Positions 1,617-5,517 of a DNA stretch of 27,972 nucleotides are shown here, one piece after another (within the stretch, counting starts at the first letter, position 1; the number at the start of each line of letters is the position of its first letter). The DNA comes from a virus. The notes below the pieces were generated by a model. The model made no database searches, was not told where the DNA came from, and saw only the letters and a list, made by a program, of their open reading frames with translations. The DNA is taken from the IMG/VR virus record IMGVR_UViG_3300013137_000081, positions 1 to 27,972 of that record; one strand, given 5' to 3'. The translations under genes and the position numbers were made by a program.

Positions 1617-1897
1617 CGGACGGCGCATACGAGGAAGGATTCAAGGCGGGTGCCGAGGCGGAGCGGAAGAAGATGACAGGAGAACTCGCGGGTGCTGGCT
1701 TCAATGAGATCACGAGCGGAAGGAAGGTGGCGAAGAAACTCCGCCAGCAATACTCCCGTTCAATCAGGGCACTCTCAACAGCACGAGTGGACGGTCTCTA
1801 TAAAACATTCGAGGAGCACATCCGACCGAAGCCGAGATGGATACCGGGACCGGCGTGGAGAGTTATCCAGAGGATTGTGCTCGTGCACTACATTTGA
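1613..1897 (+). CDS. hypothetical protein
   Basis: A 94-residue protein, not recognised. The N-terminal third is acidic and alanine-rich with likely helix (AYEEGFKAGAEAERKKM), the middle is basic (GRKVAKKLRQQYSRSIRAL), and the C-terminus is Pro/Trp-rich then hydrophobic. The start is set by the ATGA overlap at 1613-1616. It is the last gene of the ATGA-coupled run that starts with the methylases. Its last codons hold the DnaA-box-like sequence of the next promoter (TTATCCAGA, 1863-1871). Confidence 0.6.
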   Translation: MTDGAYEEGFKAGAEAERKKMTGELAGAGFNEITSGRKVAKKLRQQYSRSIRALSTARVDGLYKTFEEHIRPKPRWIPGPAWRVIQRIVLVHYI

Positions 1898-1909
1898 CAA
1901 TGCTAGAAT
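1863..1909 (+). promoter_or_regulatory. promoter with upstream DnaA-box-like element
   Basis: TTATCCAGA at 1863-1871 lies 32 bp before TAGAAT (1904-1909), which is preceded by TG at 1901-1902 (extended -10). TTGACA at 1894-1899 is only 4 bp from the -10 box and so cannot be a normal -35. The arrangement matches five other sites in the window. It would drive the gene at 1943 from about 1916. Confidence 0.5.
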
Positions 1910-1942
1910 GAAGGGGAACGATTTATACATAACACCACTACC

Positions 1943-2122
1943 ATGGGAGCATTCTCACAACTCGCCGGTGCAGTCGCAAAGCAATACGAGCGCGCCGGCA
2001 TGAGCAAGAAGCGCGCCGAGCAGATCGGAGGCGGAGTCGCATACAAGCAGGGCGTGAAGAAGATGGGTAAGTCGGCACTGCTCGCAAAGGCACGCGCCGC
2101 ACGAATGCGGAACGCGGCATAG
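1943..2122 (+). CDS. small basic alanine-rich hypothetical protein
   Basis: A 59-residue protein, very rich in Ala, Lys and Arg, predicted to be mostly helical, with a Gly-rich turn (QIGGGVAYKQG) in the middle. Not recognised. It is preceded by its own promoter-like sequence (-10 at 1904-1909) and a purine-poor leader, ATAACACCACTACC, with no Shine-Dalgarno. It is separated from the RNA island by two hairpins. Basic charge suggests a nucleic-acid or structural binding role, which is inference. The clear promoter and open frame support it as a gene. Confidence 0.6.
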   Translation: MGAFSQLAGAVAKQYERAGMSKKRAEQIGGGVAYKQGVKKMGKSALLAKARAARMRNAA

Positions 2123-2142
2123 TACGAATCACTCCTCGACTC

Positions 2143-2206
2143 ATGCTCCGAGGGCGCATACTCGAAGCAGTAGCCGGGGAGCGACTCGACCCCGTTCTCC
2201 GGACCA
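2143..2206 (+). other. two hairpins before the tmRNA, the second ending in ACCA
   Basis: The stretch 2123-2267 has no convincing gene. It holds two hairpins. The first pairs TGCT and CGAG with CTCG and AGCA across 2143-2168. The second pairs CCGGGGAGCG (2174-2183) with CGTTCTCCGG (2193-2202), ten pairs including two G-T, and is followed directly by ACCA (2203-2206). A T6 run follows 11 nt later (2219-2224), so a weak terminator for the 1943 gene is possible. Confidence 0.45.
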
Positions 2207-2221
2207 CAGCATAAGCAGTTT

Positions 2222-2251
2222 TTTACAAAGGAGGGGAGGCATGAGATACAT
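2222..2251 (+). promoter_or_regulatory. probable tmRNA promoter
   Basis: TTTACA (2222-2227), a 17-bp spacer, then GATACA (2245-2250) preceded by TGA (extended -10, 2242-2244). Initiation would fall near 2257, about 11 nt before the proposed mature tmRNA 5' end, which suits RNase P processing. It lacks the DnaA-box-like element of the late promoters. Confidence 0.45.
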
Positions 2252-2267
2252 GCAATTCCCTCTGCGC

Positions 2268-2694
2268 GGGCTCGACAGGCATAGACGCACGCACATTGAC
2301 ATCGCAAGCATGCAGACCTCGCCGGACACGTCTCGAAAACTGCCGGCAACCGGATACACGGCAAAACCGCAATCCAATCCCCGTACTTCGGTACGGTGAG
2401 TGCGCTCCGCGAGCTACAGCTCGTCTGACGCCTCCGTCCTCTCGCTCGGATCACCGGAGCGAACAGGGCGACATGAACAGGTGAATGCAAGGAGGCAGGT
2501 CGTCGCCCCTCCCCGTAAGACAGACGTGGTGGAGGTGTCATACACCCAACTCGGTACGCTGATTCCAACACTGTGGGCTTCGCATCGCGCAAGCGGTGCC
2601 CGGCGAAACTTCCTAGCAGTAAAATCAGACAAGCATGTAGACAGCGATGGCAAGAACGGAGCGGACGCGGGTTCAATTCCCGCAGAGTCCACCA
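2268..2694 (+). ncRNA. ssrA: phage-encoded transfer-messenger RNA (tmRNA)
   Basis: tmRNA rescues stalled ribosomes with alanyl-tRNA mimicry and a short degradation tag. The 3' tRNA-like domain is unmistakable: T-arm GCGGG-TTCAATT-CCCGC (2667-2683), acceptor strand AGAGTCC (2684-2690), ACCA (2691-2694), and upstream AAGCATGTAG (2631-2640), a tmRNA hallmark. Helix H2 pairs CATCGC (2300-2305) with GCGATG (2644-2649) and GCATGC (2308-2313) with GCATGT (2633-2638). Pseudoknot PK1 uses AGAC/GTCT and GCCGG (2321-2325)/CCGGC (2343-2347). The last pseudoknot uses GGGC (2575-2578)/GCCC (2598-2601) and TTCGC (2579-2583)/GCGAA (2603-2607). The 5' end at 2268 is chosen because GGGCTC pairs with GAGTCC and gives the G3-U70 pair needed by alanyl-tRNA synthetase. 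The usual GGnTTCGAC box appears only as GGGCTCGAC, overlapping that acceptor, so the 5' end is uncertain. The tag frame is ambiguous. Confidence 0.85.
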
Positions 2695-2816
2695 TGACAC
2701 GAGACACAGAAAAACCCGGAGAATCACTCCGGATACGGCTCAAGGAGGAACGAAGCCGAGAGCCAGTCACACCAGAGCAATCACTCGCAATTTGCACAAC
2801 AGAACACGAACTATGA
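2694..2816 (+). CDS. 40-residue hypothetical protein starting on the tmRNA terminal base
   Basis: A 40-residue charged protein, rich in Glu and Arg, not recognised. Its ATG begins at 2694, the terminal A of the tmRNA CCA, so tmRNA 3' maturation would cut the message just before or within the start codon. Its stop overlaps the HAD gene start as ATGA (2813-2816), which supports translation. No Shine-Dalgarno is available because the tRNA-like domain lies immediately upstream. It could instead be a chance open frame linking the tmRNA to the HAD gene. Confidence 0.5.
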   Translation: MTRDTEKPGESLRIRLKEERSREPVTPEQSLAICTTEHEL

Positions 2817-3166
2817 AAGAAATCATCATCGCATTTGATATAGACGGGACCATCCTAAACAACGAAGGCATTCCGCCGGAGACACCGGTACACCTGCGCC
2901 CGGCATCGCCGGTGAACTTGGAAATCGTCATGCTCCTGCAGATTCTCTCGAAGGGAATGAAGAACACGAAGGTCATCGTGTGGAGCGGAGGAGGAAAAGA
3001 ATACGCGGAGCAGATCGTTCGTCGGTACGGACTCGAGCGGTATGTGCACCGATGCTACGGCAAGCACGAATACGAAGCGGAGATAGAGGGAACGGTCGAC
3101 ATCGCCTTCGATGACGTGCACGCATGCACACTAGGGGATAAGAACTTGATTGTCCGCATGAAGTGA
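2813..3166 (+). CDS. HAD-superfamily phosphatase
   Basis: A 117-residue protein with the main HAD motifs: AFDIDGTI near residues 8-15 (nucleophile Asp and acid/base Asp), VWSGG near residues 55-59 (motif II Ser), and VDIAFDD near residues 96-102 (motif IV acidic pair). It is a minimal HAD with little cap, so small phosphorylated molecules or nucleic-acid 3' ends are possible substrates; the exact one cannot be read. The start is set by the ATGA overlap with the 40-codon gene; a longer open frame upstream runs through the tmRNA and is rejected. It lies between the tmRNA and the 16S-complementary RNA, so a link to RNA metabolism is tempting but unproven. Its stop codon TGA forms the extended part of the next promoter. 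Confidence 0.85.
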   Translation: MKEIIIAFDIDGTILNNEGIPPETPVHLRPASPVNLEIVMLLQILSKGMKNTKVIVWSGGGKEYAEQIVRRYGLERYVHRCYGKHEYEAEIEGTVDIAFDDVHACTLGDKNLIVRMK

Positions 3167-3172
3167 TACACT
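3146..3172 (+). promoter_or_regulatory. promoter of the small RNA
   Basis: TTGATT (3146-3151) and TACACT (3167-3172) are 15 bp apart, and the -10 box is preceded by TGA (extended -10, shared with the HAD stop codon). Six nt later, at 3179, the sequence GGAGGCGC begins, which is exactly the 5' arm of the stem that closes the RNA. The match of predicted start and stem start supports both. Confidence 0.55.
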
Positions 3173-3178
3173 GAAGAC

Positions 3179-3316
3179 GGAGGCGCAAAGCCAACGACGC
3201 CCAGGCCATGAGCCAACGGGCACACACTCAATCGCAGAGCGCCTCCACCAGATTCCAATCATCTCGAAAGGAGGTGATCCATATCTCCCCGGCTATCCAC
3301 TGCCGGGGTTTTCTTT
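3179..3316 (+). ncRNA. structured small RNA with 16-nt complement of the 16S rRNA 3' end
   Basis: No known family recognised. The predicted RNA has three parts. First, a 5' domain closed by a perfect 8-bp stem, GGAGGCGC (3179-3186) with GCGCCTCC (3239-3246), containing an inner hairpin GCCC/GGGC (3199-3202/3218-3221) and GGC/GCC (3204-3206/3212-3214). Second, a linker of about 40 nt with little obvious structure, holding GAAAGGAGGTGATCCA at 3266-3281. This is the exact reverse complement of TGGATCACCTCCTTTC, the nearly universal 3' end of bacterial 16S rRNA. Third, an intrinsic terminator. No ATG, GTG or TTG stands at initiation distance after the element, so it is not the ribosome site of a gene. 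It could bind the anti-Shine-Dalgarno tail and block SD-dependent initiation. It could also be just the HAD 3' UTR. Structure is seen; function is inferred. Confidence 0.6.
3287..3316 (+). terminator. intrinsic terminator
   Basis: Stem CCCCGGC (3287-3293) with GCCGGGG (3302-3308), 8-nt loop TATCCACT, then TTTTCTTT (3309-3316). The T-run is on the plus side only, so it ends the small RNA and any HAD read-through. Its loop doubles as the DnaA-box-like element of the next promoter. Confidence 0.85.
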
Positions 3317-3338
3317 ATCCCTTGACACGGGGTATACT
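3293..3338 (+). promoter_or_regulatory. terminase promoter, predicted leaderless transcript
   Basis: CTATCCACT (3293-3301) lies 31 bp before TATACT (3333-3338). The ATG of the terminase small subunit begins at 3345, exactly where initiation would occur, so the mRNA should have no leader. TTGACA at 3322-3327 is only 5 bp from the -10 box. Confidence 0.6.
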
Positions 3339-3344
3339 TACCTC

Positions 3345-3929
3345 ATGAAAAACGGGACAACTCCGAAAGGAGCCCCGGAACAGCCGACGCAGGAGAATGG
3401 CGCGGCATCCGGAACTCCACGAAAACCAGCGAAGAAGACCGCAAAGCAACGCGCGGAAGAACAACTCAAGCGCTCAGGCGTAGACACTGCTGGCATGACA
3501 TACGCGAAGATGCGTAGCACAATACAGCGCTTAAAAGCGGAAGGGAAACTCATCGATGCTCGAGCAGAGAATAGCGGACCAACCACAGTCGAATCGCTTA
3601 CGGCAAGAGGACTGCAGATTGTGCTTGACCGGCACGCAAACGAAACAGTGAAGGTGCGAATCACTGATGGGAAGGGGAACATCGTAGAGGTAGAGAAGCC
3701 GCGCGTTATACTCGCACTCGAGAAGCTCTTTGAACGCGCCACAAAGGGACAGGGAGAAACGCAGGCACTGGAGAAATGGCTCGACCGGGCAATGGGCAAA
3801 GCGCCGCAAGCAGTAGCACTGAAGCACTCCGGCGAGGTAGGCACGTATACAGCAAAGCGGCCGAGCAAGGCGGACATAGCGGCAAAACGAGCATATGAAC
3901 GAGCACTCTACACAGGAGAAGCAGAATGA
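3345..3929 (+). CDS. putative terminase small subunit
   Basis: A 194-residue protein. The first 40 residues are Pro/Lys-rich and probably disordered, followed by a helical middle (KQRAEEQLKRSGVDTAGMTYAKMRSTIQRLKAEGKL), a short beta segment around VRITDGKGNIVEVEKP, and a helical tail with LEKWLDRAMGKAPQ. No signature motif proves the family. The call rests on position immediately before, and overlapping by 35 nt, the large terminase, plus size and charge. Such proteins recognise the packaging site and regulate the motor. The start is the ATG exactly 6 nt after the -10 box; no Shine-Dalgarno exists. Another DNA-binding head protein is the alternative. Confidence 0.55.
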   Translation: MKNGTTPKGAPEQPTQENGAASGTPRKPAKKTAKQRAEEQLKRSGVDTAGMTYAKMRSTIQRLKAEGKLIDARAENSGPTTVESLTARGLQIVLDRHANETVKVRITDGKGNIVEVEKPRVILALEKLFERATKGQGETQALEKWLDRAMGKAPQAVALKHSGEVGTYTAKRPSKADIAAKRAYERALYTGEAE

Positions 3930-5517
3930 CCCATACGAGCAGTCGATTCTCAGATCGAGTACGCTCGCGTGGGTCAAGAAAAAAGGCATCGTGAACGAGA
4001 TGGGCATGCCAATCCGCGTTGACGGGGACTCTGACTATTTCTTCCTGCACGATATCTACGCCGACGAAGCAGACCTCATCGGCGCTCGAAAGCCGTCTCA
4101 ATTCGGACTCAGCACGTGGGCGATACTGACGGAGATACACGATGCGAAGTATAGGAACCTGAACCAGATCCACACGCTCCCGACACAAGGCGACGTGCGG
4201 AAATTCGTGCCGACTAAGGTGGACGAAATCATAGAGCGTAACGCAGAGATACGGGAGGGCATGGCGACGATGGACCTCGGTGCAATAGGGCAGAAGCAAT
4301 TCGGAAGTGGTTTCGTTTACTACACACCGACATTCTCCGAGCGCACGGGCTTCATCATCACCTCGGACAGGAACTGGTACGACGAACTCGACCGCAGTAA
4401 CCAAAAGAGCATCAAGAACTACGCATCGCGTACTGAGGGGCAGGACTCGCTGAAGCAGGAGCGCTGGCTCTCCACGCCGACGATACCGAGCTTCGGCATC
4501 GACAAGATATGGCAGGAGAGCGATCAGAAGCACTGGCGCTTTACCTGCGGGCACTGCGGAAAAAGACAGCACATGAAGTGGCCGGAGAACGTCGACATGA
4601 CGAGAGGCGAGTACATCTGCAGTCATTGTGGAAAGACAATCGACCGGGAGTGGGTACGACCGCAGACAAAACTGCACCCGAAAGGGACCGGACGATGGGA
4701 GGCGCGCTTCAAGGGGAAACCGATATCCGGCTACTGGTTCACGCAGATGATTGCGCCATGGGTGAGTGCGAAGGATTTATGCAAGGCGCACGACGAAGCG
4801 GAGAAGGAGCACCAGCTCGATTACTTCTACAACCACAAGCTCGGGATGCCATACGTCTCCGGCGACAGTGCTATCAGCGCAGGACTCATCTACCGCAACC
4901 TGCTCGGCGACCGACCGCACATCGAAGTGAATTCGTGCATGGGCGTGGACGTACAGCTCCGCGAACTCTACGTCTCCATCGGCACAAAGGAGGGAGTGTT
5001 CGGACTGGCCGCACTGCAGGAGACGGAGAGCAAGAGCAAGTGGGACCGGCTCGCGGAACTGATGGAGGTCTATGACGTGCGGTACTGCGTTATAGACGGC
5101 GGCTTCACACCAAACGAAGTGCTGGCGTTCGCAAAGAGATTCAGAAACAGGGTATGGGTGAACTGGTACAAAGACGATCCGAAGCACGCGAAGATGGTGC
5201 GGTGGAGCGATGACGAATTCCACGCGACTGAGAAGAAGACCTTCGAGGAGGAGGTGACCGTGCTCACGGAGCGGGACCGGATGATTGACTTCCTACTCGC
5301 CGAACTGCAGAAAGGCAACATCCGCTTCTTCTACGCGCAGGCAGACCAAGCGATAAAGACACTGGTGCGGCACGTGGAGACGACCTACGCGCGAACGGTC
5401 ACGGACCGGCTCGGACTCGCATCGCGCGAATGGGTATCAACCGGCAAGGACGACTTCCTGCACGCGCTCATCTACTGGCGCATCGCGCGCATGAAGCAGG
5501 AGCAGAGCGAGAAGTAA
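3895..5517 (+). CDS. terminase large subunit, GpA family
   Basis: A 540-residue DNA-packaging motor with ATPase and nuclease domains. A Walker A-like segment, ARKPSQFGLST, is at residues 64-74, where GpA proteins have ARQ/K-x-G/Q-x-S. The acidic Walker B region is YDELDRS at 162-168. A GpA-type zinc ribbon has cysteines 218/221 (CGHC) and 242/245 (CSHC). The nuclease domain shows GVDVQ near 350, VIDGG near 399-403 and DDFLHALIYWR near 520, the expected acidic ladder and closing Asp/His. Length is slightly below the lambda GpA class and complete. The start overlaps the upstream gene by 35 nt with no Shine-Dalgarno. It pumps DNA into the prohead through the portal encoded next. Confidence 0.9.
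   Translation: MNEHSTQEKQNDPYEQSILRSSTLAWVKKKGIVNEMGMPIRVDGDSDYFFLHDIYADEADLIGARKPSQFGLSTWAILTEIHDAKYRNLNQIHTLPTQGDVRKFVPTKVDEIIERNAEIREGMATMDLGAIGQKQFGSGFVYYTPTFSERTGFIITSDRNWYDELDRSNQKSIKNYASRTEGQDSLKQERWLSTPTIPSFGIDKIWQESDQKHWRFTCGHCGKRQHMKWPENVDMTRGEYICSHCGKTIDREWVRPQTKLHPKGTGRWEARFKGKPISGYWFTQMIAPWVSAKDLCKAHDEAEKEHQLDYFYNHKLGMPYVSGDSAISAGLIYRNLLGDRPHIEVNSCMGVDVQLRELYVSIGTKEGVFGLAALQETESKSKWDRLAELMEVYDVRYCVIDGGFTPNEVLAFAKRFRNRVWVNWYKDDPKHAKMVRWSDDEFHATEKKTFEEEVTVLTERDRMIDFLLAELQKGNIRFFYAQADQAIKTLVRHVETTYARTVTDRLGLASREWVSTGKDDFLHALIYWRIARMKQEQSEK

Follow-up and report, generated by a model that had tools for sequence, protein, structure and literature searches.

The window, meaning the whole 27,972-nucleotide stretch of viral DNA that was analyzed (IMG/VR virus record IMGVR_UViG_3300013137_000081, positions 1 to 27,972), carries on its plus strand the gene for a terminase large subunit at 3895..5517 (phrog_675, 1.3e-73; Pfam GpA_ATPase). 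It is preceded by an ORF in the terS position (3345..3929, +) with no family match in PHROG or Pfam. The element under study lies directly ahead of these terS and terL genes, which places it in the packaging module. Farther upstream, Rfam assigns a tmRNA to 2268-2694 (RF00023, 61.9 bits), for which ARAGORN finds none, and positions 2813-3166 hold a 117-aa ORF that starts MKEIIIAFDIDGTI and shows a HAD-phosphatase-like motif, with no Pfam or PHROG match.

Positions 3266-3281 (+) read GAAAGGAGGTGATCCA, which confirmed exactly the report of the earlier note that the conserved 16S rRNA 3′ tail (TGGATCACCTCCTTTC) has a perfect 16-nt complement here. Its core, GGAGGTGATCC at 3270-3280 (11 nt), is the part that does not vary in the class of elements described below, and it is followed at 3283..3288 (+) by a second conserved block, ATCTCC, recognized in the viral contig scans and their permuted control, which could pair with GGAGGT. 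The class pattern thus appears as GGAGGTGATCC-AT-ATCTCC (3270-3288) and matches once in the whole window record. The 16-mer has no ATG, GTG, or TTG at initiation distance, again in agreement with the earlier note, and the element lies outside any coding frame, the only same-strand overlap being a 46-aa mechanical ORF. For a fixed 16-mer on both strands of the window, we computed 1.3e-5 expected matches (1.1e-5 using the window GC), close to the figure of about 1e-5 given before.

The second block runs into a terminator hairpin, CCCCGGC-TATCCACT-GCCGGGG (3287-3308, +, with a U tract to 3318), in which the terminator scan found 7 GC pairs followed by TTTTCTTTAT. Folding also predicted an 8-bp hairpin that holds the 16-mer, ATCATCTC-GAAAG-GAGGTGAT (3258..3278, +; 3258-3265 paired with 3271-3278), and this hairpin is specific to the window, not a general feature of the class. 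Upstream of it lies a 5′ stem domain (3179..3250, +), supported by folding and by relatives, with an 8-bp closing stem (GGAGGCGC at 3179-3186 paired with GCGCCTCC at 3239-3246) and an acceptor-like 3′ ACCA; both this stem and the terminator were found where they had been placed earlier. Compared to shuffled sequences (−36.3 ± 3.2 kcal/mol), the RNA 3179-3317 folds at −56 kcal/mol (z = −6.1), and the computed duplex with the 16S tail is worth −29.9 kcal/mol vs a cost of 12.3 for opening the element within the window RNA. The start of this RNA at 3179, which had been taken as the predicted transcription start, is less firm: a possible but weak −10 hexamer, TACACT, can be read at 3167..3172 (+), 7 nt before G3179, but the promoter scan gave no sigma-70 promoter upstream of 3179. 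Rfam models matched the window only at the tmRNA, and near the element there was just one sub-threshold, terminator-driven match.

Scanning with the 16-mer returned many coding copies and true ribosome binding sites, together with a recurrent non-coding form composed of GAAAGGAGGTGATCCA, a few bases, ATCT(CC), and then a hairpin or terminator; coding copies were excluded as protein-driven, partly by hand. In several phage genes (L012, L023, L033, L040, and others, with many related contigs) the 16-mer encodes RKEVIQS near the C-terminus. We searched viral contigs for GGAGGTGATCC-N1-4-ATCTCC and obtained at least 120 stretches; the matches listed fall into 79 distinct contexts, 51 of them outside long ORFs, that is, outside any 120-codon ORF in six frames. 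When the GGAGGT/ATCTCC pairing was kept and the rest of the 16S complement altered, 4 stretches matched, and when the complement was kept and ATCTCC permuted there were 43, reducing to 4 distinct contexts, all coding. Since both controls lose the signal, the sequence comparisons indicate that the 16S complement and the second block belong to one selected unit. The earlier view of a non-coding, 16S-tail-complementary element that is not a start site and is linked to an intrinsic terminator was upheld, and the same layout recurs across many unrelated phages.

In bacteria the pattern occurred in 19 of 968 genomes (4/380 Patescibacteria, 11/289 Alphaproteobacteria, and 4/299 Bacillota), a count that includes the centre genomes of the three groups (G010, G011, and G012), which had been picked for carrying it; the reversed pattern was absent from the same 968 genomes. 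For three Patescibacteria (G013-G015), the sole occurrence found for TGGATCACCTCCTTTC was the element itself. Annotated carriers include Salmonella phage 9NA and its relatives, Erwinia/Dickeya jumbo phages, Goslar, Ruegeria phage V13, Klebsiella phage KA2-1, and a TM7 phage, and a variant form with ATAACTC is present in Pseudomonas phage Phabio. Exactly one copy was present in all 25 carrier phage records tested (5-267 kb). We regard the element as a widespread and apparently undescribed phage RNA, which phages of very different kinds carry as one copy per genome.

Members of the class share an 11-nt clamp, GGAGGUGAUCC, then 0-6 nt (mostly 2-4), AUCU(CC), and a second hairpin that often includes an intrinsic terminator. 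The stem of this hairpin varies between phages with pairing kept, and its loop is conserved in many copies: an SGGWNA loop on a variable stem was seen in 38 of the 105 dereplicated copies listed, compared to a mean of 2.8 and a maximum of 7 in shuffles, a test that was not blind because the consensus came from the same copy set. A second loop type, GGCUA[AU]YCC, occurs in L008, the Nomurabacteria copy L163, L038, L310, and L318, and in L318 this hairpin directly precedes the U tract, like in the window. The window loop, UAUCCACU, contains no SGGWNA and bears only a loose likeness to CUA[AU]YC loops, and so to the (G)GGCTA[AT]YCC loops of these five copies. MAFFT misaligned the variable second hairpin. 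A pseudoknot between a GGG in the second loop and CUCCC was rejected by eye, as the pairing fails across copies. Pairing of the second loop with 16S helix 45 was also rejected: the GGUUA variant alone fits it.

Of the 118 copies listed, 39 lie on the stop codon that ends an ORF of 60 aa or more, where random placement gives 5.2%, and 30 of 116 have a strong terminator within 130 nt (2.7% at random positions), with many class copies having no obvious terminator. Upstream sequestering hairpins were not enriched in the class (43 observed vs 43.4 shuffled), and association with tRNA genes was weak (6/82 vs 2.8 expected). Head scaffolding proteins are the commonest products encoded downstream, then the terminase large subunit and the major head protein, and upstream we found minor head, morphogenesis, and protease genes; head/packaging modules hold most copies of the element, which lies in the sense orientation of the late genes. 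In L008 and in genomes of Patescibacteria (L163, L142), very short basic ORFs (for example MRYSPMRRRVALFILRTRYCRKRR) stop immediately ahead of the element or right at it.

Among the relatives identified through TerL, the strict clamp pattern was found in 0 of 9, and L008 alone has a longer-spacer copy, GGAGGTGATCC-AGCCT-ATCTATC; a methyltransferase of the same family lies upstream of the element in both L008 and the window. The ACCA-ending stem RNA has a distribution of its own, being found directly upstream of terS in the window (3179-3250), in L002 (1067-1155), and in L004 (5325-5391), with stem sequences that vary between phages while pairing is kept and folding z values of −3.7, −4.0, and −6.5 for the 5′ stem domain and its counterparts. 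In L002/L003 and L004 it stands with a terminator before a leaderless-looking terS and the clamp is absent, and the clamp element is found elsewhere without the window's 5′ stem. The earlier proposal of a single 138-nt stem-element-terminator unit is not supported by these arrangements; because L002/L003 and L004 keep the stem RNA and terminator without the clamp, the supposed single RNA probably comprises two elements on one transcript. TATACT stands directly before the ATG of the terS-position ORF (~3329-3345), downstream of the terminator, and this immediate succession suggests that the ORF is probably expressed as a leaderless mRNA from its own promoter. Likewise, in L002-L006 a −10-like TATACT or similar sequence ends a few bases before the terS ATG. 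L002-L004 also have tmRNA-like 3′ ends upstream of terS.

The closest described RNA is Rfam RF01867 CC2171, a Caulobacter sRNA; the likely primary paper is reportedly that of Landt and colleagues from 2008. Its 5′ sequence, cAAcaAucGAAAGGAGGUGAUCCAGUGUCUCAU, contains the same 16-nt complement; a UCUC block comes next, and a terminator closes the RNA. The CC2171 model scored 71.5 bits in Brevundimonas L146 and 42.7 in Roseovarius L152, and more weakly in the phages L216 (30.6) and L176 (26.4), all below its gathering cut-off of 75 bits, and gave no match in window positions 1800-3900 at E ≤ 1. As a further difference, the copies of Caulobacterales have a GTG at initiation distance. The Brevundimonas CC2171-like copies L143 and L146 lie near flagellin/FlbT genes and include a GTG with a short ORF of 21-22 codons. 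The claim that no phage RNA of this type had been described stood as far as the literature search went, which found none in the open-licence part of PMC, but it has to be qualified by CC2171, whose 5′ sequence contains the same 16 nt.

STAB-SD sequences, for example in the cry3A leader of Bacillus thuringiensis, are Shine-Dalgarno (SD)-like, start no gene, and are thought to act via 30S binding. They act similarly in principle and differ in place and length: STAB-SDs are shorter and stand near the 5′ end of the mRNA they stabilize, whereas the phage element has an 11-16 nt complement followed by a structured block and in the window is found directly before an intrinsic terminator. The phage RNA motifs GP20-a and GP20-b (RF02991, RF03003) share the gene neighbourhood of the element, but the 16S complement lies outside their matches. 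In Staphylococcus aureus, extended SD helices continue past the core anti-SD in the direction of the 16S-tail AUC, which shows that pairing into the same region is possible on ribosomes (PMC13009471).

In 16S numbering, the stretch complementary to GGAGGUGAUCC comprises the single-stranded tail as far as the foot of helix 45. Pairing of the clamp with 16S rRNA is strongly implied by the sequence and the computed energies, and docking of 30S subunits without initiation would be its simplest interpretation. Our preferred reading, held tentatively and with slightly less than even confidence, is that window positions 3266-3318 hold a copy of an RNA element widespread among phages, which docks the 30S subunit, most likely in cis. 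Once transcribed, the clamp would pair with the tail of 16S rRNA as far as the base of helix 45, docking a 30S subunit or ribosome without translation being started; in unbound RNA, AUCUCC could close the clamp. The most likely site of action would be the end or a junction of the phage's own packaging/head-gene mRNA, where docking might protect the 3′ end, hold ribosomes, or influence termination, and in the window the upstream ACCA-stem RNA would be a separate element on the shared transcript. Action in cis is favoured because, within head operons, copies are located at stop codons and at terminators. Points against the preferred reading are that most TerL relatives of the window phage do not have the element, that one copy per genome would be unexpected of a generic stability element, and that many copies have no obvious terminator. 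Docking on the phage's own transcript appears at least as likely as the masking of ribosomes and host shut-off put forward in the earlier note.

The strongest competitor, which we rate as possible but clearly less probable, is a trans-acting small RNA that would occupy the anti-SD of free 30S subunits and lower SD-dependent host translation late in infection. It gains from the single copy per genome, kept even in 260-kb phages, and from CC2171, which has the same 5′ clamp and is a free-standing sRNA in Rfam; these are the grounds on which trans action is favoured. Terminators just downstream, a window RNA with no convincing ORF, and perfect pairing to a universal sequence are also compatible with it. 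Such an RNA would, however, face thousands of ribosomes with a clamp that AUCUCC, or in the window its own hairpin, partly closes, SD-bearing late phage mRNAs would suffer too, and the typical sites lie within head operons, not in dedicated RNA genes. In its broadest form, a general RNA class of jumbo and smaller tailed phages with hosts in many phyla would clamp the whole single-stranded 16S tail in trans and redirect or throttle late SD-dependent translation, with CC2171 as a bacterial relative; this we consider a bold proposal, doubtful and a shade less probable again. A conserved non-coding element of this kind, with one copy per genome in unrelated phages, would through pairing with the universal 16S tail bring phage RNA into direct contact with the ribosome. 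Culturable carriers exist (Salmonella phage 9NA on laboratory LT2 derivatives, and the Escherichia coli phages Goslar and Bas82 on K-12), and work on the element could show whether phages steer translation via the anti-SD itself and could reveal the role of the uncharacterized CC2171 RNA.

A ribosome-sensing attenuator seems unlikely. Here a 30S subunit on the clamp would decide the fate of the downstream hairpin or terminator and tune readthrough into scaffold/capsid or terminase genes, as might be expected from the mutual pairing of clamp and AUCUCC, the enrichment of terminators downstream, and the position directly before scaffold/capsid genes. Yet a strong terminator is present in only about a quarter of the copies listed, and readthrough may not matter in the window because the downstream gene appears to be leaderless with its own promoter.

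That the element is the ordinary strong SD of an unannotated or decayed short ORF is very improbable, and for the class this reading is largely refuted by sequence. Some 16-mer matches at other sites are genuine ribosome binding sites ahead of an ATG or GTG, and in the Brevundimonas copies a suitably spaced GTG comes with ORFs of 21-22 codons; against this, a start codon follows GGAGG at 5-12 nt in only 4 of the 118 class copies listed, and the second half is often a variable-stem hairpin rather than a reading frame. The AUC reading frame in class copies was no more open than the other two, so that translation from AUC is unsupported. Slightly less probable still is a DNA-level packaging or recombination signal with an incidental 16S match, suggested by the single copy per genome near terminase/head genes; altering the 16S-complementary bases outside GGAGGT alone abolishes the signal, stems vary with pairing kept, and copies adjoin same-strand stop codons and terminators. 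A chance 16-mer match, conceivable since the earlier reader examined many windows, is barely credible when ATCTCC and a terminator follow the match just as they do in unrelated phages, a recurrence that rules out chance far more strongly than the figure of 1e-5.

Two other origins were set aside. A 16S rRNA gene or contamination was rejected as no 16S match was found in the window record and the flanking sequence is not 16S, and an attachment site with a core matching 16S was dropped because the second block forms a hairpin or terminator and does not continue as rRNA flank. At one further locus (L193, 3066-3131), a GP20-b RNA (RF03003) lies directly between the clamp element and the downstream gene.
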